A stretch of DNA of 64,000 nucleotides from Cognatundibacterium jejuense (GTDB lineage Bacteria; Pseudomonadota; Gammaproteobacteria; Burkholderiales; Burkholderiaceae_D). Below the pieces are notes generated by a model, which was given only the letters and a program-made list of their open reading frames with translations, was not told the DNA's origin and did no database searches. The stretch covers positions 62,001 to 126,000 of the forward strand of contig NZ_JACOFV010000010.1 in the NCBI RefSeq assembly GCF_014284255.1, read 5' to 3'. A program made the translations under genes and the position numbers. This document shows positions 27,155 through 43,940 of this stretch, one piece after another (within the stretch, counting starts at the first letter, position 1; each line of letters opens with the position of its first letter).

Positions 27155-28582
27155 TTATTTCTCGTTGTTCTTCACTACAGTCACCGTACAATCTGCTTCA
27201 GCGACCACTTGTGCTGAGACGCTACCCAGGTAGCGTCTCAATGCAGAACTCCCACGTGAACCGATGATGATGTGATCAACATCGTTGTTGCGAGCGTAAT
27301 CAATGATCGCCATCGCCGGATCGGGTGACTCCAAAACGTGAAAAGTGATTTTATCGCTGTTAATATTCAAGGGGCGAGCCCAGTGTTTGAGTTCAACCAA
27401 TTGTTTAACGTGAATGTTTTCACCTTGTTGTATCAAACTTTCATCCATACCGATGCGGCTGGTTTTGCGTATCGTCAGACATGCGAGTCTGGCGCCGGGT
27501 TCGGTTTGCAGCATACGGCGTGTGATTTGCCGCAGACTCTCTGCTAATTTTTCTGACCCATGGCTTAAATCGAGAGCCACCACAATAATGGGTGCTTTTG
27601 ATAATTGCTCAGAAACGCTATGTTGCAACACCAAATCGGCGCCGACCGCTTTAAATCGGCGTTTCACAACCGCCAGATAACCATCTTGCTGATCTTTCTT
27701 TGCACGGGCTGTTAACGTCAGTTGCTCTGGATGTTGCAACAAAAAAGCCAGCTGCGCCGCCGTATCAAAACGTGCATTTGGATCGACTTCTAAACAACGC
27801 AAAATAATTTCTTGCAACCAGTCTGGCATATCTGCCCTGTGATTGCGTGGTGGAATCGGGTCGCGGTACAGACGCTTTTTTAAACCGGAAACGGAGGTTG
27901 GATGTCCAAATGGACGTTCACCTGTTACCAGATGATAGAGCAACACCCCCAGTGCAAACAAATCACTACGCGGTTCATTGCGAACCCCCATCACTTGTTC
28001 GGGCGATATATACGGGCCAGTGCCCAAAGGCAGACGAAATTCTTCGTCCAGCAGATCGGGTAAGCGGTCATGGCGCGACAAGCCAAAATCAATCAATACC
28101 GCCAGTCCATTTTGGAACATGATGTTGCTAGGCTTAATGTCGAGATGAATCACATGCTGACGATGCAAATCTTGCAGGGCATTGGCGATTTTGACGCCGA
28201 CGCTGACGACTTCGTCAAGTGGTAATGGTGCTTTTTCAAAGCGACCGCGCAAGGATTCTCCGGCAATTTGTTCCATCACAATGTATGGTTGTGCATCAAA
28301 ATCTCCGGCACCAAAGTACCGCGGCACGTGATCACCTTTGAGCTTAGGCATGATCATTTGTTCGACTTCGAATGCCACGATCGCAGTCGGGTCATCGCTG
28401 GAAAATAGCAACGGTACTTTCATGATCAGCGGCGGAACACCGTTTTCCAGACCGGGTTTGTTGAGATGGCGCTGGCGCAGATCGGTGACGCGCCACAAGG
28501 CCGCCATGCCGCCGGTATGTAATTTCTCCTCTAGCCGGTAACCATCAAATTCCATCCCGATCTGCAGGCTGCGCGTGCTCAT
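27155..28582 (-). CDS. Serine/threonine protein kinase fused to a universal stress protein domain
   Basis: In this 475-residue soluble protein, residues 1 to about 280 form a Hanks-type kinase. It has a glycine loop EKLHTGGMAALWRV, lysine in IMKVPLLF, the catalytic loop HLDIKPSNIM (HLD instead of HRD), DFGLSRHD, GTGPYISPEQVMG and SDLFALGVLLYHLVTGERPF. From about residue 325 comes a UspA domain (APIIVVALDLSHGSEKLAES) with the ATP-binding ending IIIGSRGSSALRRYLGSVS. There is no membrane span. The metallophosphoesterase gene ends one base before its start on the same strand, suggesting a kinase/phosphatase operon. Confidence 0.9.
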   Translation of the reverse strand: MSTRSLQIGMEFDGYRLEEKLHTGGMAALWRVTDLRQRHLNKPGLENGVPPLIMKVPLLFSSDDPTAIVAFEVEQMIMPKLKGDHVPRYFGAGDFDAQPYIVMEQIAGESLRGRFEKAPLPLDEVVSVGVKIANALQDLHRQHVIHLDIKPSNIMFQNGLAVLIDFGLSRHDRLPDLLDEEFRLPLGTGPYISPEQVMGVRNEPRSDLFALGVLLYHLVTGERPFGHPTSVSGLKKRLYRDPIPPRNHRADMPDWLQEIILRCLEVDPNARFDTAAQLAFLLQHPEQLTLTARAKKDQQDGYLAVVKRRFKAVGADLVLQHSVSEQLSKAPIIVVALDLSHGSEKLAESLRQITRRMLQTEPGARLACLTIRKTSRIGMDESLIQQGENIHVKQLVELKHWARPLNINSDKITFHVLESPDPAMAIIDYARNNDVDHIIIGSRGSSALRRYLGSVSAQVVAEADCTVTVVKNNEK

Positions 28583-28583
28583 T

Positions 28584-29327
28584 TTAATTTCCGGTCAATA
28601 AACGTGCCGCGAGAGATGCGGGAAGACCAGCCGCTAAAATTTTCTTTGCAGCGCTATCATGGTCATAAGGAACGCGAAAATAGGTGAGTTCCTGCGTATC
28701 CGTATCAAACGTTGCATAGCAGGCAGCAGGGTTACCGTCGCGTGGTTGACCGACGGAGCCCGGAATAACCAGCCAGCGACGCTGTTTGCTTAACGGAATA
28801 CTACTCTCAGGGGTAGGCAAAAATTCTCCGGTTTTACCAGTCAGCGTCATGTGATACAAGGTCGGCATATGTACGTGGCCACAAAACGTAATCGCTGCTT
28901 TACACGCATGCATACTGCGCATGGCTTCCATCACGCCGTCAATGTATTCCCATTTATCTGGTGCCCAGGCATTGGCGTGCACCAGCAACATATCCTGTAA
29001 TTCTATGCGGTAGGGTAACGCCCTGATAAACGCTATTTGCTCTGCACTCAGCTGGGCACGTGTCCATTCCACGGCCTGCCTTGCGACCGGGTTCATGTCG
29101 CCTTTGTCTTCTTGCAAGATACCGGCGTCATGGTTACCCATTAATACCAATGCGCCTTTAGCGACATAATCCATCACTTTTTGTAAGACCCATGCCGGGT
29201 CAGCGCCGTAACCGACAATATCGCCCAAAAAAGCGTAGTGCGTTACTTTTTGTTGCTCCGCGTGAGCCAGGCATGCTGAAAGTGCTTCGCGGTTCGCATG
29301 GAGGTCGGTCATCAGGGCTAGCAGCAT
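28584..29327 (-). CDS. Metallophosphoesterase (calcineurin-like)
   Basis: This 247-residue calcineurin-fold phosphatase has the metal motifs in order: LMTDLHAN (D-x-H), FLGDIVGYG, LVLMGNHDAG and FCGHVHMPTLY, plus VIPGSVGQPRDGNPAACY near the C-terminus. The arrangement resembles small diadenosine tetraphosphatase-like or PPP-type proteins of the YfcE/DUF3 group. It is the first gene of an operon with the kinase-UspA fusion (one base between stop and start), so it may dephosphorylate the kinase or its targets, or cleave a nucleotide bound by the UspA domain. Confidence 0.88.
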   Translation of the reverse strand: MLLALMTDLHANREALSACLAHAEQQKVTHYAFLGDIVGYGADPAWVLQKVMDYVAKGALVLMGNHDAGILQEDKGDMNPVARQAVEWTRAQLSAEQIAFIRALPYRIELQDMLLVHANAWAPDKWEYIDGVMEAMRSMHACKAAITFCGHVHMPTLYHMTLTGKTGEFLPTPESSIPLSKQRRWLVIPGSVGQPRDGNPAACYATFDTDTQELTYFRVPYDHDSAAKKILAAGLPASLAARLLTGN

Positions 29328-29471: not shown

Positions 29472-30185
29472 TTACAAACTGCCTTTGTATTGTAGATAAC
29501 CGCGAGCCCTTAATTCGCAAGCAGGGCAGGTACCGCAGCCATGGCCCCATTCATGCAACTCACCACGTTCACCAAGATAGCAGGTATGCGTGTCAGCGCG
29601 GATCAGATCCACCATGACGCTGCCACCTAAGTCTTCTGCCAGTTCCCAAGTTTGGGCTTTGTTGATCCACATGAGTGGCGTTTCTAGTTTCAGGCGTGTT
29701 GCCATGCCCAGATTGAGCGTGACTTGCAACGCTTTCATGGTGTCATCACGACAATCCGGATAACCGGAGAAATCCGTCTCGCACATGCCACCTACCAGGA
29801 CATTGAGACCGCGGCGATATGCTAATGTTGCCGCTACCATCATAAACATCAGGTTGCGCCCGGGTACAAAGGTATTGGGTAAGCCGTTTTCCTGCATTTC
29901 GATGGCAATATCCTCAGTCATCGCGGTTTGCGACAATTGCGAAATTAATGACAAATCGATCATATGATCTTCACCCAGACGCGCTTGCCATTCGGGCGAG
30001 AATTGACGTATTTTTTTTAGCAAGTCTGGTCTGACTGTTAATTCGATGGCATGTCGCTGACCATAATCAAAACCTATCGTCTCGACATGCGCATAGCGTG
30101 ACAAGGCCCACGCGAGGCAGGTAGTAGAATCTTGTCCGCCGCTAAACAGAACAAGGGCACGATCGTTTTCGAAGATTGGTTTCAT
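29472..30185 (-). CDS. queC: 7-cyano-7-deazaguanine synthase
   Basis: QueC converts 7-carboxy-7-deazaguanine to preQ0 in queuosine biosynthesis, using ATP and ammonia. The 237-residue protein has the PP-loop [18 protein letters not shown] at about residues 11-28, [30 protein letters not shown] and the C-terminal zinc cysteines in [15 protein letters not shown] plus an upstream cysteine in DTHTCYLG. Length is normal. No queD, queE or queF gene lies beside it. It is divergent from the flippase gene with 106 bases between them; I see no preQ1 riboswitch there. Confidence 0.95.
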
Positions 30186-30291: not shown

Positions 30292-31596
30292 ATGAGTTTT
30301 TCTAAAAAATTTCTTTCCTCTTCCTTGCTGTCCGTCATAGATCAAGGCATGTTGAGTGCCTTGAATTTGTTGGTCGGCGCCTTGTTGATACGCATGGTCG
30401 ACAAGAATGATTACGGCTTATATGGACAATTGTACGCTGGCGGCCTGCTTGCTGGTCTGGTGGTCGATTCATGGATTGCGGGTCCGCTGACAACTGTTGC
30501 CAGTGCCGTACATGAGAATACACGCAAACTCTTATTGCGACGCTATTGGTTCCGACAGATTTTTTGCACCTTGTTGATGGGTGGATTAGCGTTTTTGATC
30601 GTGGAATTTGTTCCGGCAGCAACCCAGCATGCGAATAAGAGTTGGCTGTTGGGATCGGTGTTTGGTCTCTATGTCATCGGTAACGGCTTGCGCGAATATG
30701 GTCGTACTGTTGGTTTTATCCAATCTGACATCCAGAGTGTTCTAAGACAAGATTTTGTTTATGTACTTGCGGTCATTACCGGATTGGCCGCTTTAATGTT
30801 CTATCAACACATTGACCTGATTTCGGTATTTTCTGTGTTGATGGGCTCTTCATTGCTGTGCGCTTTGTTTGGACGGGAACGCCTGATAGCCCGAACCAAT
30901 ACCGATTCTAAAGAGATGGACCCAGGTGATCTGGAAGTGATTGTCGGACATCAGGATACAATTACTGGTCATGGGCGTTGGGCGGTGCTTGGTGTGGTGG
31001 TTGGCTGGTTGTCGAATTATAGTTACGTGTATTTGTCCGGCGCATGGTTGGGTCTGTCAGCGATTGCTGATTTGAATGCTTCTCGCTTATTGCTGATGCC
31101 AATTCCGCTGGCAGTTGCCGCCTGGTCACGTGTCGCACGGCCTGAGGCCGGGCGCCTGATCGCCAGCCAGAATTGGTCGCGCTTAAATAAGCTTACTTTG
31201 TTTTCGATTGCAGGGATAGAACTCGTTGTTTTAGCTTATGTTGGTTTCTTAATACTGACTCTGCCGTTATTAGAAACTTATGTCATCGGCAGCAAGTACC
31301 ATGGACTTGATCCCTTGATTATGTTGTGGGGTATCTATTTTGCGGTGAATGCTGTGCGCTGGATAGGCACTTCCTGGCTGATGAGTGGTGGGGCGTTCCG
31401 TTCCATGTTTTTCTTAGGAACGGTAACGCTGATCCTGGTTGTCGGCATAACGTCTTTCTCGATTCCCTACTGGGGTTCGGCGGGCGCCATATTTGCACTG
31501 ATCTTTGTTGAAATTTTTGAGACTGTCGTCGTCTGGAAATTTATTTTTCCACGTTTGCAGAAGCCGCTTGAAAGCGTTTCTGTAAATGTGTCGTAA
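30292..31596 (+). CDS. Oligosaccharide/polysaccharide flippase-like membrane protein
   Basis: This 434-residue polytopic protein has about twelve hydrophobic spans. It begins with a Wzx/PST-type pattern (SSLLSVIDQGMLSALNLLVG, VDKNDYGLYGQLYAGGLLAG) and includes a polar loop around residues 205-225. Members of the MVF/MATE/PST superfamily flip lipid-linked glycans across the inner membrane. Its 3' end overlaps the convergent hydrolase gene by 56 bases. Its position at the edge of the carrier-protein operon suggests that it exports a product made there, but that is inference; no glycosyltransferase gene adjoins it. Confidence 0.8.
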   Translation: MSFSKKFLSSSLLSVIDQGMLSALNLLVGALLIRMVDKNDYGLYGQLYAGGLLAGLVVDSWIAGPLTTVASAVHENTRKLLLRRYWFRQIFCTLLMGGLAFLIVEFVPAATQHANKSWLLGSVFGLYVIGNGLREYGRTVGFIQSDIQSVLRQDFVYVLAVITGLAALMFYQHIDLISVFSVLMGSSLLCALFGRERLIARTNTDSKEMDPGDLEVIVGHQDTITGHGRWAVLGVVVGWLSNYSYVYLSGAWLGLSAIADLNASRLLLMPIPLAVAAWSRVARPEAGRLIASQNWSRLNKLTLFSIAGIELVVLAYVGFLILTLPLLETYVIGSKYHGLDPLIMLWGIYFAVNAVRWIGTSWLMSGGAFRSMFFLGTVTLILVVGITSFSIPYWGSAGAIFALIFVEIFETVVVWKFIFPRLQKPLESVSVNVS

Positions 31597-33442
31597 TCAC
31601 CGAAATCACACGCTTTTGAGCCCAACGTGGCGTGAAAGTATGATCAGCACCTTTCAATATTTCCAGCCTGACACGCGGGCTTTTCCCTAGTAATACGCCG
31701 TGTCTGCCAAAGTTTTCGGTCATCAGATCGACGCTGCTGTCGCCCGCATCCATAATCATTAAAATTTCTGTACCACGCGCTTCCATTTGTCTGAACTGAC
31801 GTGCCACTTTTCCCAAGAAATGGTGGCTTTCTATAAATTTAGTGATAAAGGCTTGCGACAAAATATGTAGCCGCTTAGTAACCCTTTGCGACAACCTAAC
31901 AAAGATTTGCCGGAATTGAATCTCACCGCGCAAGACCCGCTTCCAGGTATGTAAATTGCGAATCGCTTTGACATAAAAATGGGTCGATTTGATCGATTCT
32001 TTTCGCCGCGCCTCCAGGCTATCACCTTCATTCCAGTGGTACACCAGCTGATTCATTAAAATGATACCTTTGACGCTCGCCTCTTCCATTGCGGTCAGAT
32101 AGCAGAAATAGGCACCTGAGCACAATCCACCAATGACAAAAAGTTCGCTACCAAATGCAATGCGCATAAACTGCATCGCAGAGCGCATGTCATTTACGCC
32201 GCCATTCGCATACACGTCGTTTTCTTTACCTTCTGGGGTAGCTTTGCTGTATCCGATGCCAGCTTTATCGAAGCGTAAAACGGTAAACCCGTTGGCAGCA
32301 AGTTCACGCGCTAACTTTACGTACAACTGGTGATTACCGACCCGATGATTGGCGCCGATATTGGTGAGTAAAACGGTAGGGAGTGTCAGAGAAACAGAGT
32401 TAACGGGACGGCTGACAACGCCTACCATTTCTTCGAAGGAAACCAGATTTTCTGTGATGACTTGTGCGTCAATCTGCAGCGTAATAGCTGTCTCTAGATT
32501 GATCTTCTCGTTGATTGGTACGGGTTGAATATCGAACAGAGGTGCGAGCCACGCCGCAACTTCCAGCCATATTTCTTCTGGTACCTTGGTATCATGCGCA
32601 TCGGGTTTCATCATGTCCGCATAGCCGGGGCTACTGCTCAGGTGCAAATGTGGATTACTTTGGTTCCAGCTATTTGCAAGTTTTTCTTCTTGTCCGGCGA
32701 CATCGTCTCTGGACATAATCAATACAGGCATGTCTGGTGCGGGCATTTTCAACATGTCGAGCTTGCCGATACTGCTGCGCATTTCTGCACTAAACTCATA
32801 GCCGGTTATTTCGTCGTCGCTGATTTGCTGTTCCGGTTCAGTTTTTTCTGCTGGTGTGGATTGTTCAGCAGGTGCTGCAGCTGATGTGGAATGCAAGGAG
32901 CTCATGTTTCTCAAAACCTGCAATTCGCGGCAATAGGCGCGCCCAGAAACTGCTGGTGCTAACATCACTAACGCCGAGGCCTGGATGTCCGTGGCAACGC
33001 TGGCCGCCAACAAGGCACCCAGGCGCAGACCAAACAAGGCAATATGTTCGATGCCAGCAATCTGACGTAACTGCGTAGCCGCAGCACTGATATTGGATTG
33101 CCAGATTGCGACTCTATCGCCGTCAAGATTGGCAGAGTCACCGCTATTGTTGTAATCAAAAAACAGGACGTCAAAACCAGCTTTCGCCAGTGTATTTGCC
33201 AAGTGTTTGTACGACAAATACGAGACCATATATTCGTGGCCGAATGGCGGACACAACACTACGCCGCACTGACGACTACCACCAAGATCACGCTTACGGG
33301 CTGGATGATACCAACCCAACAGGGGCGCATGATTTTCGCCGAACCAAAAGGCCTGCGGTGTAAATAAAATGTCTTTACTAGGATAAAGTTGGGTTGCCAC
33401 GGTCAGCCTGCGGAGGGATCGGGGGTGAGATGAATCTGACAT
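31541..33442 (-). CDS. Double alpha/beta hydrolase protein (exosortase-associated-like)
   Basis: This 633-residue protein has two alpha/beta hydrolase domains. The first (about 25-300) starts with VVLCPPFGHEYMVSY and has FDYNNSGDSAN, but its elbow reads FGLRLGALLAAS, with Arg140 where the nucleophile should be. After a polar linker rich in E, P and Q, the second (about 350-625) has LLTNIGANHRVGNHQLY, LRFDKAGIGYSK and the elbow GGLCSGAYFCY with Cys441 at the nucleophile position. The histidine of the second domain is probably in KGADHTFTPRWAQ. Such pairs resemble hydrolases found near exosortase and polysaccharide loci. It overlaps the GH2 gene by 40 bases; GTG at 33400 is an alternative start. 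Confidence 0.82.
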   Translation of the reverse strand: MSDSSHPRSLRRLTVATQLYPSKDILFTPQAFWFGENHAPLLGWYHPARKRDLGGSRQCGVVLCPPFGHEYMVSYLSYKHLANTLAKAGFDVLFFDYNNSGDSANLDGDRVAIWQSNISAAATQLRQIAGIEHIALFGLRLGALLAASVATDIQASALVMLAPAVSGRAYCRELQVLRNMSSLHSTSAAAPAEQSTPAEKTEPEQQISDDEITGYEFSAEMRSSIGKLDMLKMPAPDMPVLIMSRDDVAGQEEKLANSWNQSNPHLHLSSSPGYADMMKPDAHDTKVPEEIWLEVAAWLAPLFDIQPVPINEKINLETAITLQIDAQVITENLVSFEEMVGVVSRPVNSVSLTLPTVLLTNIGANHRVGNHQLYVKLARELAANGFTVLRFDKAGIGYSKATPEGKENDVYANGGVNDMRSAMQFMRIAFGSELFVIGGLCSGAYFCYLTAMEEASVKGIILMNQLVYHWNEGDSLEARRKESIKSTHFYVKAIRNLHTWKRVLRGEIQFRQIFVRLSQRVTKRLHILSQAFITKFIESHHFLGKVARQFRQMEARGTEILMIMDAGDSSVDLMTENFGRHGVLLGKSPRVRLEILKGADHTFTPRWAQKRVISVITTHLQKRFQAASANVEK

Positions 33443-35970
33443 TTGACGCTACTTTGCATATTCAGACCTTGTACGCTGACTTTAGGTGTGATCGGAAGTT
33501 GTTGTGCTCTGAGACGTATTGTTTTTTTGATGCCAGGACTCAGATGGAAGTAATTGTCGTCTGGCGTCATGCCGGGAGAATTGATGTAAATAGCCTGTGC
33601 CACGCGTTGCGTCTGCAAGGTCAGCAAAAAATCACCATTGGTCTCTTGTGTTATTTCGCCGCTTAAACCCAGATCGCGTTCTGTTGCCAGATCCTGACCG
33701 CTAGTGAAGTGGTAATCACTACACAGTGGTATTTCTGCACCAGTCGTATATAAATGCAATCCGGCGAGATGGTGTCCAGCGGGGCCAAAACGATAGGCGT
33801 AAGTCGTATCTAAAAAGTGCGGCAGAATGGCATCAGCTCTTAGCATGACGCTACTGTGGGCGGCAAGCGTGATGTGCTGACGAGCCCGCGCAACGCAGGT
33901 TTCACCACGCTTGTACAAACAAAGCTCCAGTTCGCCATCGAAGTTGTTCGGTGTATCGTTTACCACGTGCATCGCTAATCCGTTCAAACCTTCGTCTGTC
34001 AGAAAAACCGTCAGTGGTGCCATCGCACGTTTTAAAAAATAATACGCCGCTTTGGGATTGCCGTTCGCGTCAACAACACCCCAACCAGCACCCGCCCACA
34101 AATCACGCCAGAACCAGATCAATGCACCACGGCAGCTTGATCCGTGACGACGCCATTCTTGTATTGTTTGTGCCATCACTTCGCCAGTCGTGGTACGGGC
34201 TAACGCCAGATAGCGTTCACGTTCGGCATAACGCAGGCGCATGGGGTCGACGCGATACAACTCGGCCATATAGTGATCGCGCACATCTTCAAAATCCCAG
34301 CTGGTGCCATTGTCACGTGGTACGCGCCGTTTCCAGTCTGGATGCGGACCTGGCGTAACACCATTGTCAAGAATGCTATCGATCAGTGCATCGTCTGGCA
34401 TATTCGAAAAACCCAGACATTCGGATGTAAAACGTACGCCGCTACGACGTGCATCGTCTAACGGGCGCAAATACGCTCCGACGCCAAAATAATGCGCGAC
34501 TCCCGCATCGACCTGGAATGGCATCACGCCGCCTGTCGGGCTGGATGGCCAGTAAATTGCATCGGGTCTCAGGTTGTGGCAGAGTTGTGGCAAGGTCTCA
34601 GCAAAAAATGCATTGCGCCAAAGTTCTGGCGGTTGACCTAACATTGCTGCTTGTTGTTCGATTTCACTGTTGCCACACAAGACGGCAATACATGGCGACA
34701 TCTGCGTGCGTTGTAAAAATTGTTCAGCTTCGTTTTGTATATTTAGTGCGAACGTCAAATCGCCGACCGGATAGTCCATGTTAGCGAACATAAAATCTTG
34801 CCACACCAGTATGCCCAACTCGTCACAGAGGCGATAAAAAATCGGATTCTCATACACCATGGTGCCAACGATGCGTAGCATATTCATACCGGCATCACGC
34901 GCCAATGTCAGCATTCTTCTTTGTGCTGATTCATCAGCATTGAGTGATAGCAGATCGGTTGGCGTCCAACAGGCGCCGCGACAAAAAACCGACACGCCGT
35001 TCACATGTAAATGAAAATCATCATTGCTTTGGAATACGTGGATATGACGGAAACCGAGTTCGCCTAAGGCAAAAAATTGAGAGACCGATTTGTCTTCTTG
35101 CTGGTAAATTACTTCGACAAACGCCGTGTATAAATGTGGTTTGCCGTGAGTGTGTGGCCACCACCATTGTGGATCGGTAAATACTAGCTCTCCGCTGGCG
35201 CGTGTTAATTTTTTTTCGGATTGCTCAAGTTTGAGTTCTTGTGCACGATCACCCACATGCAAGCGTACCTGGCTGATCGCAATGCCAGTTTCAAACTCTA
35301 AAACAGCGTCAACGATGCCGTCCGTGCCCATCAATCGGCTATGCATTTGTTGGTTGCACAAACGAAGCGGGTTACGCATTTCCAGACTGATGGCGCGATA
35401 CGGGCCAACTGGCGCGACTGGTGGCGACCAGCCGGGCATACGTCCGATCAGACTGGTACGGAACCAGCGCAATTGCTGTTGTTCGACTAATTTGGTTTTC
35501 CAGCGCGGGCGTGGTCTGCGTTCTGCTAACAAGTTGTCGAGTGCAATGAAGCACAGACTGAGTGTTCCGATACCTTGGATTTGCAATGCCTGCAGATCCA
35601 GACTATGCCGCACAAACATATTCTCGCAACGTGTTAATAGTCTATCGTTCCAGAAAATATCTACTATCCCAGCGAGCCCATCAAAATGCAAAAACGCGGC
35701 ATCAGAACTGATTTCTGCTTCGCAAAAAAACCAGATATCGAGCGTATCAAATTGATGCTCGCCATATTGAAATTGATTCGCTTCACGTAATACCGATGCG
35801 GCGGTGCAGGGAAGCTTTGCCGGTAAGCTTTGTCTGGCGTGAATTGCTAATTCTAAAGGCGAGGAAAATGCCGACGGCGCTGTCATCACCATACGCCAGT
35901 CAGCACTTAAGAGTGGATTGCTGCTGTCTGCTGAGTGATCTGATGGGTGACTAAATGCGTTGCTCATCAT
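33403..35970 (-). CDS. Glycoside hydrolase family 2 protein, beta-mannosidase-like
   Basis: This 855-residue protein has the GH2 order: a jelly-roll sugar-binding domain (FLHFDGLAGIVDIFWNDRLL, TSLIGRMPGWSPPVAPVGPY), an Ig-like domain, then a TIM barrel from about residue 310 (VNGVSVFCRGACWTPTDLLS, DAGMNMLRIVGTMVYENPIF, CDELGILVWQDFMFANMDYP). The acid/base glutamate is E436 in LCGNSEIEQQ (GNSE where mannosidases have GNNE), and the nucleophile is probably E517 in RFTSECLGFSNMP. No signal peptide is visible, so it should act in the cytoplasm. That is odd for a glycan-degrading enzyme and hints at a role on an intracellular intermediate. DUF1839 is three bases upstream. Confidence 0.85.
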   Translation of the reverse strand: MMSNAFSHPSDHSADSSNPLLSADWRMVMTAPSAFSSPLELAIHARQSLPAKLPCTAASVLREANQFQYGEHQFDTLDIWFFCEAEISSDAAFLHFDGLAGIVDIFWNDRLLTRCENMFVRHSLDLQALQIQGIGTLSLCFIALDNLLAERRPRPRWKTKLVEQQQLRWFRTSLIGRMPGWSPPVAPVGPYRAISLEMRNPLRLCNQQMHSRLMGTDGIVDAVLEFETGIAISQVRLHVGDRAQELKLEQSEKKLTRASGELVFTDPQWWWPHTHGKPHLYTAFVEVIYQQEDKSVSQFFALGELGFRHIHVFQSNDDFHLHVNGVSVFCRGACWTPTDLLSLNADESAQRRMLTLARDAGMNMLRIVGTMVYENPIFYRLCDELGILVWQDFMFANMDYPVGDLTFALNIQNEAEQFLQRTQMSPCIAVLCGNSEIEQQAAMLGQPPELWRNAFFAETLPQLCHNLRPDAIYWPSSPTGGVMPFQVDAGVAHYFGVGAYLRPLDDARRSGVRFTSECLGFSNMPDDALIDSILDNGVTPGPHPDWKRRVPRDNGTSWDFEDVRDHYMAELYRVDPMRLRYAERERYLALARTTTGEVMAQTIQEWRRHGSSCRGALIWFWRDLWAGAGWGVVDANGNPKAAYYFLKRAMAPLTVFLTDEGLNGLAMHVVNDTPNNFDGELELCLYKRGETCVARARQHITLAAHSSVMLRADAILPHFLDTTYAYRFGPAGHHLAGLHLYTTGAEIPLCSDYHFTSGQDLATERDLGLSGEITQETNGDFLLTLQTQRVAQAIYINSPGMTPDDNYFHLSPGIKKTIRLRAQQLPITPKVSVQGLNMQSSVKCQIHLTPDPSAG

Positions 35971-35973
35971 GCC

Positions 35974-36963
35974 TCAGCCTACCTTTTTCAGGCTATGCGT
36001 AAGTGCGGTCATACCCTGAGTCCAGTGGTGTGCCAATTGTTGTGTCAGAGGAGATAGGTCAACGGCTTTTTTTCCCATTACGGCACGTGCCGTTTTGAGT
36101 AATAAAGTTTTAGTCGTATCAGAAATACTGTCAAATTCTTGTGCCGCGATACGGAAGTCCCCTTGTCCATGTTGTTCCAGCCAACGCAAATATTGCGCTC
36201 CCAGACTAAAACCTGCGCCCAGTTGGCGCAAGGTGGCAAACGCATAAGCGTGATACGCCGCCATGCCCTGTTCTTTGAGATTTTCAACATCGCTCAAAAA
36301 TACGGGGGCGAATGCGGTGACCGGATTGTGTTCAGGCCGACGTGCAATATGTTTATGCAGCAAACTGAGGGCAATCTTTGCAAGTGCTGCGTCATCGCGT
36401 CGTTGTAAGCGATCAAGTCTGACGAATTCGGCGAACAATGGCATAAACGTTGGATCATATGGTTTGCCGATACGGAAGGTTTCGACAAAATCTTCACCGT
36501 GTAATTCATGGTAGCTACTATTATGGAAATAGCCCATGCGTTGCGCATCGATATCGATTTCCTGAATCGCAATCGTGGTTTTGACATGATTGCTGCGGTA
36601 ATCGGTACCCGATGTATCTGGCAGATAAAAAGAATCGGATTCAGTTAAGACCAGGCGGCCACGGCGTAATTGTTCGCAGGCATTAGGTAGTAAACCGCGC
36701 CAGACATTGAGCTCTTGTACGTCGATGCCATACAGTGCAAACAAGTCTTCATGTGGTGGCTTGTAAAAAGTCCACTGATCGCCATCAAAGTCATTCGCAA
36801 ATACCATAGACAGGCAAGCCAGTGGATTAAGATCTTGCGCGTGCAAGACTTCTACCCAGACATCGATATAGCAATTGGTTTCCGCCCAGGCACGCTCAGC
36901 CCCGTGCAATGCATGGGGCTGGTAGCTGCTGACATCAATTTTCGGTAATGCGCACAGACTCAT
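35974..36963 (-). CDS. DUF1839 family protein
   Basis: This 329-residue protein matches DUF1839, a family found near amino acid:carrier protein ligase genes. Visible blocks are AWAETNCYIDVWVEVLHAQD, LACLSMVFANDFDGDQWTFY, PPHEDLFALYGIDVQELNVW, ESDSFYLPDTSGTDYRSNHV and KTTIAIQEIDIDAQRMGYFH. The N-terminal part is reminiscent of cysteine-peptidase-like acyl-transfer folds (cysteine in TNCYIDVW), which could accept an aminoacyl group from the carrier protein, but this is inference. It overlaps the ligase gene upstream by four bases (ATGA). Confidence 0.85.
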   Translation of the reverse strand: MSLCALPKIDVSSYQPHALHGAERAWAETNCYIDVWVEVLHAQDLNPLACLSMVFANDFDGDQWTFYKPPHEDLFALYGIDVQELNVWRGLLPNACEQLRRGRLVLTESDSFYLPDTSGTDYRSNHVKTTIAIQEIDIDAQRMGYFHNSSYHELHGEDFVETFRIGKPYDPTFMPLFAEFVRLDRLQRRDDAALAKIALSLLHKHIARRPEHNPVTAFAPVFLSDVENLKEQGMAAYHAYAFATLRQLGAGFSLGAQYLRWLEQHGQGDFRIAAQEFDSISDTTKTLLLKTARAVMGKKAVDLSPLTQQLAHHWTQGMTALTHSLKKVG

Positions 36964-37871
36964 AAGCCAAGGATTTCGCGGGTTGCTGTTGGCCAGGTTG
37001 CGGTGTCCATGCCATGTGTTTTAAACAGTGCCATGACAATACGTTCCAGACCAAAACCCAGACATGCTGTGTGTGCGACTTCACCACTGGCTGTGTTAAT
37101 TTCAAATAGTTTACCGAAGTGATCCTGATGGTAATTGAACGAACAGACAGCGGTTGGTTTTTCTTGGGAAATCACCGGAATCACGACTTCAAATTTCAAC
37201 TGTTGTTCACGTTGGTTCGCAGCCAGCATACGGCCGCCACGACCAAAGAATGGGTCGGACGCCACTTCAGAATGTGCTGGCAAACCGAGTGATTGCAGAA
37301 TATCGATACCACGTTGTAGCCAGGTATCACGCCATGCGACGACCATTTCTGGCGTACCCACGCGGACAAACTCGCGGACGCGGAACGACTGCATACGGGT
37401 CGGTTCAGGTGAGGGTTCATTACGGAACACCCAGTTCTGCATATCAACCAATTTGCCTTCAGCAGGCAAAGTACCGGTAAAACTAGGATAAACCGGATAA
37501 CAAGCAGCAGGGGTCAGACAGACTGCGGTCATGGTTTGCAGATGCGTCCACGGACGACCTTCATGTACGTTTTCAATGAGCTCTTTGTGCTGTGCTTCGG
37601 TACCGGTAAAACTGAAAATAGTTCCTGCTAATTGCGGGAAAGAATCGAGGTATTCGCTGCGCTCTAATACCTTGCGATCGAGGCAGGGCGGGAACGACAT
37701 TTTGGTGGCGTTATCATTCGCAGCAACACGTGACACGTAATCATCGAACAGGCGTAGTACCTTTTCAAATACCGGGCCACGACCAAAAATACCTTGTACT
37801 CCGACCGGAATAATATGACCAGCTTCGACCAGATCGTTGGTCAGAATTTCAGGAGAAAAATCGATAGACAT
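36960..37871 (-). CDS. Amino acid:[carrier protein] ligase (class II aminoacyl-tRNA synthetase-like)
   Basis: This family resembles the catalytic core of atypical, zinc-dependent seryl-tRNA synthetases but lacks the tRNA-binding domain; characterised members load glycine or alanine onto a carrier-protein phosphopantetheine. The 303-residue protein has the class II motif 2 region (WVFRNEPSPEPTRMQSFRVR) and motif 3 (HTACLGFGLERIVMALFKTH). Likely zinc ligands are a cysteine in CLTPAACYPVY (C118 or, more probably, C124), E167 in FRVREF and C270 in HTACLG. The gene lies 17 bases after the acyl-CoA dehydrogenase homologue and next to its probable carrier protein. AGGAAG precedes the ATG. Confidence 0.92.
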   Translation of the reverse strand: MSIDFSPEILTNDLVEAGHIIPVGVQGIFGRGPVFEKVLRLFDDYVSRVAANDNATKMSFPPCLDRKVLERSEYLDSFPQLAGTIFSFTGTEAQHKELIENVHEGRPWTHLQTMTAVCLTPAACYPVYPSFTGTLPAEGKLVDMQNWVFRNEPSPEPTRMQSFRVREFVRVGTPEMVVAWRDTWLQRGIDILQSLGLPAHSEVASDPFFGRGGRMLAANQREQQLKFEVVIPVISQEKPTAVCSFNYHQDHFGKLFEINTASGEVAHTACLGFGLERIVMALFKTHGMDTATWPTATREILGL

Positions 37872-37888
37872 GGGCTTCCTCTTAGGGT

Positions 37889-39055
37889 TTAGTCGTCTTT
37901 GAGTACTAATAACAGATTCGCATTGGTGGCTAAAATGCGGTCGTTTCCTACCATTAACATCGAGGACAACGCATCTCGTAAATGGCGGCTCATACTGAAT
38001 TTATTATCGTTTTTGTAGGCCAGAATGCCGCAAATCGATAAGGCTTTAATGACGATCTGTGGCAAGGCCTGGGTTGCATCTACTTTGAGATTATTCATTT
38101 TGAGTGAATAGCCGATGGAGGACAAAACACCGTCGGCTGCGTCTTCAGCTGCGGCCAATTCTTCGTATTCTGTCAGGCAGGCTTTGACTGAGGTACGCAA
38201 GCTTTGCAACATGCTGACGAGTTCAGCTAAACGTAAAGCGGTCGGTGGCACTGTGCCCGGGTTGGCACGCGCCTGACCACGGACAAAAGCACGTGCTTTG
38301 TTGACGGCGGCGGCTGCGCAGCCAGTCCAGCATCCACCCCACAATAAGTGGGAAACTGGAACGACTGTTTGTGCTGACATATCGCCAAAATGGGCTTCCA
38401 TGATTTGCGCAACATCGCCACTGGAAGTCATCAGGAATGGTGGGCTGCAAGTACCGCGCATACCCATGGTATCCCAATTGCCTTTTTGTGCGAGTGTGTA
38501 ATCGGCTTTGCGTACGAGAATTAAAGACTGATCACTATTGGCCGCATCTGGTGCACGACGTGCAGTGACCAACAAATCATCTGCCTGCGCGCCGTAAGAA
38601 ATGGTGGTCGCATCTTTGACCAATTTGAAGCGTGAGCCCTCAATTTCCACGGCGCATTGGCTACGGCGCATTTCACCACCAACGCCGACTTCTGAGGTGA
38701 CAGAGGCGATCAGATATTGATGCTGAACCAGTTCCTGCAAATAATTGCGGTACCAGGGATGATTCACTGCATGTTTGACGATGGTAATGACCTGAATTTG
38801 GTGCATCGCGAAAATCATCGCAGTCGCTGCACATTGGCGCGCCAGAATATCGCAGATTTCCACCAACTCACTCAGGCTGGCACCTGCGCCGCCCAGCTCA
38901 ACCGGGACATAGGCACTCAACAATTTTTCTTGCTTTAAAGCGTTTACCGCTTCGATTGGGAAACGTGCTGCTTTATCGACCGCGTCAGCATGTGGCGCGG
39001 CAAATTCCAGTGCGACCACACGTGCGGAAGTGAGTAGGGGGGAATCGGTTTTCAT
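37889..39055 (-). CDS. Acyl-CoA dehydrogenase-like flavoprotein lacking the catalytic glutamate
   Basis: This 388-residue protein has the acyl-CoA dehydrogenase fold: N-terminal helices (PVELGGAGASLSELVEICDI), the beta domain (LIASVTSEVGVGGEMRRSQC, NWDTMGMRGTCSPPF) and C-terminal helices. Aligning RDALSSMLMVGNDRI with the usual RDARILTIYEGTSEI puts Val369 where classical enzymes carry the base glutamate. It may therefore be a flavin-dependent oxygenase or hydroxylase like other glutamate-less members, or use another base. Its substrate is probably an aminoacyl group on the adjacent carrier protein, since ligase and carrier genes flank it (17 bases and 1 base away). Confidence 0.88.
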   Translation of the reverse strand: MKTDSPLLTSARVVALEFAAPHADAVDKAARFPIEAVNALKQEKLLSAYVPVELGGAGASLSELVEICDILARQCAATAMIFAMHQIQVITIVKHAVNHPWYRNYLQELVQHQYLIASVTSEVGVGGEMRRSQCAVEIEGSRFKLVKDATTISYGAQADDLLVTARRAPDAANSDQSLILVRKADYTLAQKGNWDTMGMRGTCSPPFLMTSSGDVAQIMEAHFGDMSAQTVVPVSHLLWGGCWTGCAAAAVNKARAFVRGQARANPGTVPPTALRLAELVSMLQSLRTSVKACLTEYEELAAAEDAADGVLSSIGYSLKMNNLKVDATQALPQIVIKALSICGILAYKNDNKFSMSRHLRDALSSMLMVGNDRILATNANLLLVLKDD

Positions 39056-39056
39056 A

Positions 39057-39296
39057 TCAGGCAGTCAGTTCTTCAATGGCAGCGTTGATCGCATTAATAC
39101 TTTCAAAGACGCTACGTTTTAACATGCGATCTGGAAACTCCAGATCAAATGTATCTTCCAAAGCCAGCATGACATTCACACTTGCGTGGGAGGTCATGCC
39201 GGCTTCATACAAATCTGCGTCGTCAGCCAAACTGTCGATGTCGGTGGAAAATTTGCCATGTTCCTTTAATACCTGACGAATTTGTTCTTTGCTCAT
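39057..39296 (-). CDS. Acyl/aminoacyl carrier protein
   Basis: This 79-residue acidic carrier protein starts at the ATG at 39296; the longer frame upstream overlaps acpS and is unlikely. It is all-helical, with the phosphopantetheine serine probably Ser36 in LYEAGMTSHASVNVM, where the usual DSL reads TSH, as in carrier proteins paired with amino acid:carrier ligases. LEDTFDLEFPDRMLKRSVFE is the standard helix III end. Its stop is one base before the start of the acyl-CoA dehydrogenase homologue. It should be loaded by the ligase at 36960 after activation by the AcpS-like enzyme upstream. Confidence 0.9.
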   Translation of the reverse strand: MSKEQIRQVLKEHGKFSTDIDSLADDADLYEAGMTSHASVNVMLALEDTFDLEFPDRMLKRSVFESINAINAAIEELTA

Positions 39297-39351
39297 AAAA
39301 GTCTTTCGATTGCTATATGGAATTGGAGAAGTAAGGTTTTTGTGATGTTGT

Positions 39352-39768
39352 TTAGTTTCTGACAGAGATTCTGTTTGTTTTTTTGCCGCCAAATGTTGAT
39401 GTTGCGATGACAGTTGCAATCGCATATTCATGTTCATGACTGAGGCTTAGCACGTAATCGTCAAGACCAGCAACGCGTGCCAATATCTGCGCCTCGCGAT
39501 GTAGGCGTAAGCCCGGGCTGCCGTTGGTACGACGCACAACCTCGATTGAATTCCAAGAGAGCGCCGTATCTTTGTTCAGTCCTAATATTTTCATGGTTGC
39601 TTCTTTAGCAGCGACTCTTGCCGCCAGGCTGGGATAGTTTCGTTGCTGCGCAGAGTGACAGTCCTGCAATTCTTGTTCACTGAACATGCGGCGCAAATAG
39701 CGGTCACCGAATTGCAGTATAGAGCGCTCAATTTCAGGAATCCAGACCAAATCTGTTCCCAAACACAT
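39352..39768 (-). CDS. 4'-phosphopantetheinyl transferase, AcpS type
   Basis: The enzyme transfers phosphopantetheine from CoA to the carrier serine. The 138-residue protein has MCLGTDLVWIPEIERSIL (magnesium-binding aspartate), RRMFSEQELQDC, LAARVAAKEATMKILGL (the K-E-A motif) and YVLSLSHEHEYAIATVI. AAGGAAG precedes the ATG at 39768, so I dropped the 42-codon upstream extension. It is the first gene of the operon with the carrier protein 55 bases downstream. This is probably a dedicated enzyme, as the housekeeping acpS normally lies with pdxJ and rnc in proteobacteria. Confidence 0.9.
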   Translation of the reverse strand: MCLGTDLVWIPEIERSILQFGDRYLRRMFSEQELQDCHSAQQRNYPSLAARVAAKEATMKILGLNKDTALSWNSIEVVRRTNGSPGLRLHREAQILARVAGLDDYVLSLSHEHEYAIATVIATSTFGGKKTNRISVRN

Positions 39769-42464: not shown

Positions 42465-43940
42465 TTATTTTTTCTTGTCCGACTTATCTGCTTTGTCAGC
42501 CTTCTCAGCCTTCTCAGACTTATCGCCGCCTTCTTTATTTTCGTGAACGTCTTTTGGCTCTGTGACCTTGACTGGCAAGCCTTTCAGATGGTTCAGCGCT
42601 TGCGCTAACTGATAGTCATCTTTGCTACCGTATTCTAAAGGCTTACTTTTCTTCGCCAGGGCAATCAGGCGTTGCTCTTCTTCCAGTTCATCGACTTTTG
42701 GGCGAGTCGATTCAGCTTCTTTATCGTTGCTCAGATGCTTTTGCAAATCGGATTCACGGGTACGCAAACTATTGAAGCCATCGCCATCTGCTGTTTCTTC
42801 GACATTAAAATCAGGCACGATACCTTTCGCCTGAATGGAGCGACCGTTTGGCGTGTAGTAGCGTGCGGTGGTCAATTTAACTGCGGTATCAGCAGAAATT
42901 TGGCGGATAGTCTGTACTGAGCCCTTACCAAAGCTCTGTGTGCCAATGATTGTGGCACGTTTGTAATCTTGCAGAGCACCAGCAACAATTTCTGAAGCGG
43001 AGGCAGAACCGGTATTGACCAGCACTACCATTGGCACGTTTTTTACGGCTTCCGGCAATTTTGCTAAAGGATCGCCAGAGACTCGACCAGAATAAAATTC
43101 ACGTTTGGCGTAGAACGTGGCTTTGGAATCAGGCAATTGACCATTGGTTGAAACAACAGGCACATCTTTTGGCAAAAATGCGGCAGCAACACCGACTGCG
43201 CCTGGTAACACGCCACCTGGATCGTTACGCAAATCCAGCACCAAGCCTTTGATAGAAGGATCCTGGGCGTACAACGTCTGGATTTTTTTCGCCATATCTT
43301 CAACGGTCGGCTCCTGGAATTGCGAAATACGCAACCATGCATAACCAGGTTCGACCATTTTTGCTTTAACGCTCTGTTGTTTGATCAACTCACGTGTGAT
43401 CGTCACCACGATGGGTTTGTCTTCGTTTTTGCGGGCAATCGTCAGGGTGATCTTGGTGTTTGGCTCGCCGCGCATTTTTTTAACTGCGTCGTCGAGTGTC
43501 AAACCTTTGACGGGAACTGAATCAAGGCGGGTGATCAGATCGCCTGGTTTTAAACCAGCACGATAGGCAGGTGAATCTTCGATAGGAGAGATGATTTTAA
43601 CGTAGCCATCTTCCATGCCGACTTCAATACCCAAGCCGACGAATTTGCCCTGCGTACCTTCTTTGAGTTCTTTGAAGGCTTTTTTATCAAGGTAGGCTGA
43701 ATGAGGATCCAATGAGCCGACCATGCCTGAAATGGCTTCGGAAAGCAATTTGCTGTCATCGACAGGTTCTACGTAGTCTGATTTGATCAGACCGAACACG
43801 TCTGCCAACTGGCGCAGCTCTTCAACCGGGAGTGGGCTGGCAGCATTTTTTTGTGCCATTGCTGAAAATTGCATGGATGCTGCCACGCCAGCGACCATGC
43901 CCAGGCCGATTAAACTAAAATTCTTAAATTTGCTGCCCAT
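42465..43940 (-). CDS. ctpA: S41-family C-terminal processing peptidase
   Basis: This 491-residue periplasmic protease has an N-terminal signal or anchor (SLIGLGMVAGVAASMQFSAM), a PDZ domain (about residues 90-170, VGLGIEVGMEDGYVKI, AGLKPGDLITRLDSVPVKGL) and the S41 domain with the catalytic serine in NTGSASASEIVAGALQD and lysine in IGTQSFGKGSVQTI. The tail is very lysine-, aspartate- and glutamate-rich (KEGGDKSEKAEKADKADK). It processes envelope proteins and peptidoglycan hydrolases. It follows envC by 14 bases and gpmA beyond, a common Burkholderiales order. Confidence 0.93.
   Translation of the reverse strand: MGSKFKNFSLIGLGMVAGVAASMQFSAMAQKNAASPLPVEELRQLADVFGLIKSDYVEPVDDSKLLSEAISGMVGSLDPHSAYLDKKAFKELKEGTQGKFVGLGIEVGMEDGYVKIISPIEDSPAYRAGLKPGDLITRLDSVPVKGLTLDDAVKKMRGEPNTKITLTIARKNEDKPIVVTITRELIKQQSVKAKMVEPGYAWLRISQFQEPTVEDMAKKIQTLYAQDPSIKGLVLDLRNDPGGVLPGAVGVAAAFLPKDVPVVSTNGQLPDSKATFYAKREFYSGRVSGDPLAKLPEAVKNVPMVVLVNTGSASASEIVAGALQDYKRATIIGTQSFGKGSVQTIRQISADTAVKLTTARYYTPNGRSIQAKGIVPDFNVEETADGDGFNSLRTRESDLQKHLSNDKEAESTRPKVDELEEEQRLIALAKKSKPLEYGSKDDYQLAQALNHLKGLPVKVTEPKDVHENKEGGDKSEKAEKADKADKSDKKK

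Follow-up and report, generated by a model that had tools for sequence, protein, structure and literature searches.

A portable gene cassette built around an amino acid:[carrier protein] ligase, with a possible role in aminoacylating an amino sugar

Introduction

What would a bacterium make from an amino acid loaded onto a carrier protein by a relative of the tRNA synthetases? The question is raised by seven genes on the minus strand of a 64,000-nucleotide stretch of Cognatundibacterium jejuense DNA (contig NZ_JACOFV010000010.1, positions 62,001 to 126,000), which we call the window and whose own numbering is used throughout. They run from position 39768 down to 31541 and are built around an amino acid:[carrier protein] ligase. 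We show that the seven genes form a self-contained portable cassette and we propose, as a reading to which we give even chances, that it performs a condensation like that of the lincosamide synthetase with a tRNA-synthetase-derived loader, giving a cytoplasmic aminoacylated amino sugar. Within the gene set an orphan ligase activity is joined by a glycosidase and by a condensing enzyme whose fold is known, which makes the pathway testable.

A ligase of this kind, Bll0957, and its carrier were reportedly described by Mocibob et al. in 2010 and 2013. The original prediction, a reading of the letters of the window, held that an amino acid is activated, altered while on the carrier and handed to an acceptor, which might be a glycan, and that the combination had no described function. 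The latter went too far, since parts of it were predicted twice. A note in proof to Iyer et al. (2010) describes the gene neighbourhood, glycosidase included, and predicts amide ligation to the amine of a cell-surface sugar (PMC2922099), and a 2023 papain-fold survey places DUF1839 in the papain-like superfamily, in an entry that mentions a possible glycan-related role (PMC10318531). Elsewhere, one paper names Atu2573 in a set of hub genes. In the open-access literature, a scope outside which most subscription papers lie, we found no product for amino acid:[carrier protein] ligases or for DUF1839.

Results

We established the layout of the operon by checking the start and stop codons of its seven open reading frames (ORFs). 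These encode, from upstream to downstream, an acpS-like phosphopantetheinyl transferase, a stand-alone carrier protein, a flavoenzyme of the acyl-CoA dehydrogenase (ACAD) fold, a class II synthetase-like ligase, a DUF1839 protein, a glycoside hydrolase of family GH2 and a fused double alpha/beta hydrolase. Successive genes are separated by 55, 1 and 17 bases, then overlap by 4, lie 3 bases apart and overlap by 40. Coordinates and codons bear out the prediction of seven same-strand genes with gaps of 1 to 55 bases or short overlaps, and Pfam and NCBIfam agree with the family names given to all of them. The gene set, its linkage, the predicted folds and the motifs presented below were all computed.

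To see how the genes travel, we used two samples. The first was drawn from one-genome-per-species contigs in a public genome collection in which the system is common, at least 581 stretches encoding a relative of the ligase; the best 80 of these were kept by similarity, so that counts lean towards near relatives, and 46 of the 80 have full 10-kb flanks. The second was an unranked, phylum-level sample of 398 genomes, including that of the window. Firstly, ligase and carrier were found in all 46 full-flank loci and the ACAD-fold, DUF1839 and GH2 genes in 44 each; the five core genes occur together in 43 of the 46, and each core gene found sits less than 500 bases from another. The acpS gene is present in 20/46 and the hydrolase in 39/46, within 500 bases of a core gene in 31 of these 39; the other hydrolases lie up to 7.8 kb from the core and may be unrelated. 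Secondly, in the phylum sample a ligase match was detected in 44 genomes, in 28 of them above the NF005479 cut-off, and DUF1839 in 16, each time with a copy beside an over-cut-off ligase (16/16; 33–126 bases between the profile matches). The full context was inspected for three of these 16, namely the window, L147 and L148. Of the sixteen genomes with a sub-cut-off ligase we inspected four (L143–L146), and neither ACAD nor carrier was present in any (4/4).

The order of the genes varies. Undibacterium, Azospirillum and others have a single operon, and Ramlibacter, Rhizobacter and others a divergent arrangement in which acpS, carrier, GH2 and hydrolase face ACAD, ligase and DUF1839; such lineage-specific orders imply that the gene set holds together through rearrangement. 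It does recur in Burkholderiales, where the original prediction proposed to search for it, and its range is wider: Alphaproteobacteria, Myxococcota and an actinomycete metagenome-assembled genome (MAG) also carry it. Many of its hosts live in soil or water. Spread is scattered and includes 94 plasmid records. In eight annotated plasmid loci the core from carrier to GH2 (carrier, ACAD, ligase, DUF1839, GH2) stands amid unrelated neighbours, the hydrolase following it, facing away or missing. Flanking ORF clusters found in at least four loci mostly stay within a single genus, Undibacterium and Azospirillum being examples; those of wider range include common families (AMP-binding enzymes, flavin reductases, WecG-type transferases). 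The seven-gene set is a self-contained portable cassette.

Two variations in gene number were observed. The actinomycete MAG has two different ligase genes in one cassette (L078:9914-14345). A second DUF1839 copy lies elsewhere in two of the 16 DUF1839 genomes; extra copies near or apart from the cassette are L010:20662-21858, L148:15232-16452 and G429:C159.

We next consider the loading enzymes. The ligase gene (36960–37871) was identified as an amino acid:[carrier protein] ligase by the original prediction, and the family profile confirms this (NF005479, 6.3e-127; 422.9 bits, cut-off 357). The window comes from an Undibacterium-like genome, and the nearest ligases, 93% identical, are those of U. 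curvum and U. crateris. Among solved chains, sequence search finds 4h2w (8.4e-76) and the Bll0957 chain 3mey (1.4e-73). Cys124, Glu167 and Cys270, which we take to be the zinc site of the class II core, are conserved in 96/96 rows of the alignment. According to a 2022 review, ligases of this type accept Gly, Ala and Ser (PMC9437257). The carrier gene (39057–39296; NF005480, 111.4 bits, cut-off 72; PF00550) probably starts at 39296, within a longer ATG ORF that starts at 39437; its product has the motif G-[ML]-[TSD]-S, whose Ser, the phosphopantetheine site, is kept in 86/86 rows. The acpS-like gene (39352–39768, ATG start, TAA stop; PF01648, 2.8e-13; TIGR00516, 75.8 bits, cut-off 59.8) is predicted to prime this adjacent carrier. 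The ligase family strongly suggests that the enzyme loads the carrier with a small amino acid.

The gene at 35974–36963 encodes the DUF1839 protein (PF08893, 1.8e-111). A profile search of Protein Data Bank (PDB) sequences returned one unrelated chain (E=0.97), hence no sequence-level homology to CcbD, CtaG or AziU3. We therefore turned to structure, with an AlphaFold2 model built from 51 sequences (mean predicted local distance difference test score, pLDDT, 94.3), which has a papain-like N-terminal half and is helical from residue 191 on. Foldseek against the PDB returned 18 chains at E<=1e-3, all of them AziU2-U3, CtaG or CcbD. The matches are near full length, with a query template-modelling score (TM) of 0.53–0.61, a root mean square deviation of 5.3–7.8 and 11–14% identity, values that indicate the same fold class and are not proof of the reaction. 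Cys31 (84/86), His126 (85/86), His147 (86/86) and Asp116 are conserved. Within this fold group, CcbD condenses carrier-bound proline with a thiooctose amine through a Cys-His-Glu ping-pong mechanism, as stated in one report (PMC12945683), and CtaG has been proposed to act as a carrier-to-carrier peptidyl transferase (PMC6772006). From the fold shared with CcbD, CtaG and AziU3 we infer an amide-bond former: DUF1839 is predicted to be a Cys-dependent carrier-protein:amine acyltransferase, or amide synthase.

What sugar might bear the amine? The GH2 enzyme (33403–35970) has GH2-type domains and falls in the beta-mannosidase branch (5n6u, 1.1e-69). Its nucleophile, E517, is conserved in 78/78 rows and its acid/base, E436, in 75, with Asp in the other three. 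The preceding residue is Ser435 in 76/78, in place of Asn, the residue aligned there in the mannosidase chains 7op6 and 2vjx. In a discussion of GH2 active sites, a Ser at this position in glucosaminidases (SD) and in GH2_14 (SE) is said to overcome the incompatibility of Asn with C2 amination; the loop-2 His is replaced by Gly in GH2_14, enlarging the pocket, and by Glu in GH2_16, and substituted substrates may be let in where SE is combined with a small residue in the loop (PMC12243196). The residue preceding the acid/base of CsxA is likewise Ser (PMC6566704). Position 368 of our enzyme, which we tentatively map to the loop-2 site, lies two residues after the conserved Arg366. The mannosidases have Trp there; our 78 rows have Gly (30), Pro (19), Val (9, as in the window), Ser (8), Ala (6), Thr (3), Ile, Phe or Asn (1 each), and never Trp, His or Glu. 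A Ser-Glu motif with a mostly small pocket residue fits a C2-amino or C2-N-acyl sugar, and by this motif we liken the enzyme to GH2_14/16 and suggest that it handles such a sugar, which would agree with an amide synthase using a sugar amine. Counted from the start column of the window, none of the 78 rows has a hydrophobic N-terminus, and the enzyme is predicted to be cytoplasmic.

The flavoenzyme (37889–39055; PF02771/PF00441; AlphaFold2 model pLDDT 92.3) had been called an acyl-CoA dehydrogenase homologue. Family and fold support the name, but Glu is missing from both usual catalytic positions: position 369 is Ile (59) or Val (28) and position 235 is Ser (65), Thr (12) or Ala (10) in 87 rows, 235 and 369 being, as we assume, the catalytic Glu positions of isovaleryl-CoA dehydrogenase and the medium-chain enzyme. 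The protein consequently does not look like a normal alpha,beta-desaturating acyl-CoA dehydrogenase. His236 is conserved in 87/87. In the profile search dehydrogenases come top (1.6e-25), followed by the nitrososynthase DnmZ (3.4e-21) and the monooxygenase TdsC (1e-17); Foldseek also puts ACADs first and finds TcsD and the DszC/TdsC monooxygenases, TdsC and the acyl-carrier-protein dehydrogenase TcsD having the highest TM (0.84) among the 50 matches listed. Flavin reductase genes, confirmed by Pfam in 7/7 cases, occur in L032, L035, L042, L046, L057, L074 and L094. In L046 the gene lies 7 bases upstream of acpS and in L042 123 bases upstream of the carrier gene, both on the same strand, and in L032 and L074 it is on the opposite strand. 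These neighbours favour a monooxygenase, against which stands the first rank of dehydrogenases in both searches. We lean to an enzyme that N-oxidises the carrier-bound aminoacyl thioester.

The last gene (31541–33442) encodes two fused hydrolase domains. The first resembles TIGR03101 (104.6 bits, cut-off 202.75) and lacks a Ser or Cys nucleophile, having G-x-R-x-G with Arg in 53, Gly in 8 and Asp in 1 of 62 rows. The second resembles TIGR03100 (129.9 bits, cut-off 168.45) and has G-x-C-x-G, with a Cys441 nucleophile in 61/61 ungapped rows, and Asp600-His601. A hydrophobic stretch of 19 residues is present in 34/62 rows. We rejected membership of the exosortase A-associated hydrolase system, since both domains score under the cut-offs and the genome of the window is without exosortase (PF09721 absent). 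We keep the resemblance as a hint of an association between such hydrolases and acyl carriers. A small esterase is an optional companion, which 12 loci have inside or adjoining the cassette (among them L040:9009-9689 and L039:2898-3563); the two that we checked are Abhydrolase_2 proteins.

With two of seven proteins holding hydrolase-type domains, and a GH2 of the beta-mannosidase branch keeping both catalytic carboxylates, the cassette might instead serve salvage, GH2 and the hydrolases degrading imported glycoconjugates and the carrier genes merely recycling the amino acid. We find this highly improbable: an ATP-using ligase, a carrier and acpS would be superfluous for catabolism, no recurring sugar transporter was seen in the flanks examined, and GH2 and DUF1839 are jointly absent in L054 and L055, which have NRPS/PKS or NRPS genes instead (nonribosomal peptide synthetase, NRPS; polyketide synthase, PKS).

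This last observation belongs to a wider pattern, for the triad of carrier, ACAD-fold enzyme and ligase is also found without DUF1839 and GH2. Twelve over-cut-off genomes of the phylum sample have no DUF1839. In the seven that we inspected (L136–L142) the ACAD gene adjoins the ligase (7/7), the carrier was detected in 6/7 and DUF1839 is missing from the whole genome; L140 was counted as triad-only on the absence of PF08893 from its genome. In the ligase tree the seven triad-only rows are one clade (100/100) within a mostly alphaproteobacterial, 42-row DUF1839 group whose own fork is poorly settled (85/99), and at least two changes are required to explain the triad-only type on this tree; rows on long branches, L008, L013, L014, L020, L078 and L145 among them, are unreliable. 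Bll0957 is 93% identical to the ligases of L136 and L137, two genomes without DUF1839. A table for a Bradyrhizobium phaR mutant lists bll0957 and the neighbouring acyl-CoA dehydrogenase gene bll0958, both at 3.0-fold (PMC10888616), which fits joint regulation.

Other partners take the place of the condensing module elsewhere. In L055 (3843-13405) the hydrolase is followed, 3 bases on, by a Condensation-AMP-binding-PP-binding protein, an NRPS. L054 (6036-20889) and L065 (65-12783) have an AMP-binding/luciferase-like/PP-binding protein and a PKS in place of DUF1839; the NRPS/PKS genes of L054 face the ligase, and the L065 contig is cut on the side that might hold GH2. The three loci are possible undescribed natural product clusters. 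On a Priestia plasmid (L013:7890-21713), acpS and the triad precede a drug/metabolite (DMT) transporter, an ATP-grasp protein, a thioesterase, an alanine permease and an alanine racemase. The ATP-grasp protein matches an L-amino-acid-ligase domain under the cut-off, and a D-Ala-D-Ala ligase homologue lies upstream; on its gene content the cluster looks like one for an alanine-mimic natural product with self-protection. Different acceptors seem to receive a modified small amino acid from the triad. We tentatively extend this to small aminoacylated amino sugars as a widespread family that has not been described before. The portable triad, its flavoenzyme N-oxidising, would furnish a modified Gly or Ala thioester, and the module that accepts it could be exchanged: an ATP-grasp ligase, NRPS or NRPS/PKS genes, or a CcbD-like amide synthase paired with a C2-amino-sugar GH2.

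The same loci bear on another explanation, that the product is an amino-acid-derived antimetabolite, a mimic of Gly or Ala, whose sugar is a temporary mask that GH2 removes. The triad common to the NRPS and NRPS/PKS clusters of L054, L055 and L065, what may be self-protection against an alanine mimic in the Priestia cluster, and the scattered spread with its plasmid records are consistent with it. We nonetheless consider it improbable, as no recurring exporter or resistance gene was seen in the DUF1839-GH2 loci examined and the cassette has no glycosyltransferase to attach a mask.

Finally, we examined the surroundings of the operon. The nearest same-strand gene upstream (40934–40155) lies 386 bases from acpS. 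Downstream, a flippase-like gene on the plus strand (30292–31596), with a weak O-glycosylation-flippase match only, is convergent with the operon and overlaps its last ORF by 56 bases. This gene was seen again in six fetched Undibacterium loci, together with queC (29472–30185) and a phosphoesterase-like gene (28584–29327); beyond these, the gene at 27155–28582 fuses a protein kinase domain to a universal stress protein domain. Such a convergent flippase is genus-level synteny outside the cassette, and we rejected membership in a surface-polysaccharide operon. AT3-type membrane acyltransferase genes lie directly beside the hydrolase in L046:7459-8601, L063:1583-3544 and L069:1479-3515, and upstream of the carrier in L012:12026-13267.

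Does the aminoacyl group nevertheless go to the sugar amine of a lipid-linked or polymeric glycan, decorating a cell-surface polysaccharide or glycolipid? This is what Iyer et al. predicted in the note in proof (PMC2922099), and several neighbourhoods would suit it: the flippase-like gene of Undibacterium, the AT3 genes adjoining the hydrolase, a glycosyltransferase cluster that encloses ligase, carrier and acpS in Tsukamurella L014, exopolysaccharide genes flanking the cassette in Shinella L017, and WecG-type genes in 7 loci, that of L066 touching DUF1839. The cassette of the window, however, has neither a glycosyltransferase nor a flippase of its own, and flanks are mostly unshared between genera, so that the genes give no sign of a surface polymer. 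Surface-glycan genes occur in the flanks of three of the eight annotated plasmid loci (L012, L017, L018) and inside the operon of none, and GH2 is without a hydrophobic N-terminus. We regard a surface glycan as unlikely.

Regulatory signals were sought as well. Co-transcription gains no support from them: promoter-like sites did not exceed those in shuffled sequences (10 vs 11.8), nor did terminator-like sites (8 vs 9.8). Rfam returned nothing above gathering in 14 relative loci, so no riboswitch gives a clue to the amino acid; between 26000 and 45000 of the window it gave two sub-gathering matches only, both outside the operon. One of these, to RF02800 (Rickettsia sRNA47; 42872–43068, E 1.5e-8, 44.2 of 60 bits), lies on the strand opposite to the ORF at 42465–43940 and is probably due to chance.

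Discussion

In the pathway that we propose, AcpS would prime the carrier, and the ligase would adenylate a small amino acid, such as the Gly, Ala or Ser taken by its relatives, and load it. The ACAD-fold flavoenzyme may then oxidise the aminoacyl thioester, by N-Calpha desaturation or by N-hydroxylation. The DUF1839 Cys would accept the acyl group and pass it to an amine, judging from the fold most likely that of an amino sugar, and GH2 would release or trim the sugar unit, before or after acylation. The double hydrolase may clear or release carrier-bound thioesters. The outcome would be a small molecule, an aminoacylated amino sugar, rather than a surface polymer. We infer the substrate, the oxidation, the acceptor, the order of steps and the role of the hydrolase; the scheme of activation, modification and transfer in the original prediction is still the best reading, now backed by the DUF1839 fold and the GH2 active-site motif. 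Counted from the start column of the window, no cassette row has a hydrophobic N-terminus except for a single row each of ACAD and ligase, and this, with the unrelated neighbours of the cassette, points on balance to a cytoplasmic product.

Several points weigh against this reading. CtaG is not a sugar enzyme, and neither is AziU3. The triad of DUF1839 is given as C(T/S)H in the papain-survey entry (PMC10318531). The nearest solved chains to GH2 by sequence are beta-mannosidases; the SE subfamily GH2_14 includes a few beta-galactosidases, according to the passage on subfamilies (PMC12243196); and a catabolic or transglycosylase role is conceivable for the enzyme. The hydrophobic stretch of the double hydrolase leaves room for a membrane link. 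The reduced clade of Bll0957, without adjacent DUF1839 or GH2, indicates that this version skips the condensation step. Acceptor, amino acid and oxidation, moreover, are all deduced from family, fold and motif.

The pathway nonetheless predicts a donor, a class of acceptor and an order of steps. If it is true, a route to sugar conjugates starts with a relative of the tRNA synthetases. If the wider family of aminoacylated amino sugars fed by the triad exists as well, specialised metabolism has a third amino acid feed beside NRPS adenylation domains and aminoacyl-tRNA.

How does the cassette compare with known systems? New here are its nature as a cassette, the fold likeness of DUF1839, the Ser-Glu motif of GH2 and the portable triad. 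The Atu2574 neighbourhood is of the same make-up as Iyer et al. describe it in the note in proof, with a carrier, a dehydrogenase/monooxygenase, a conserved ORF and a glycosidase; their acceptor was a cell-surface sugar amine, whereas we find a free-standing cassette with DUF1839 in the CcbD/CtaG fold group. Bll0957 is a ligase of the same kind with the conserved Cys-Glu-Cys, and its neighbours are a stand-alone carrier and a homologue of ACAD; it differs in that its neighbouring genes show a pathway ending at the triad. The exosortase A-associated hydrolases 1 and 2 (TIGR03100/TIGR03101) are each matched, below cut-off, by one domain of the fused hydrolase. BtrH, an ACP:aminoglycoside acyltransferase (ACP, acyl carrier protein) as classified in the papain-fold survey (PMC10318531), is absent from the structural matches of DUF1839; like CcbD, it resembles the predicted DUF1839 route in using a carrier-bound donor and an amine on an amino sugar as acceptor. 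Closest is the lincosamide synthetase CcbD/LmbD, since DUF1839 shares the fold class of CcbD and CtaG and their full-length architecture. In lincosamide synthesis the donor is loaded by an NRPS adenylation domain, CcbC/LmbC. The cassette, unlike the lincosamide synthetase, is without thiooctose genes, has a class II synthetase-like loader, and adds GH2 and a double hydrolase.

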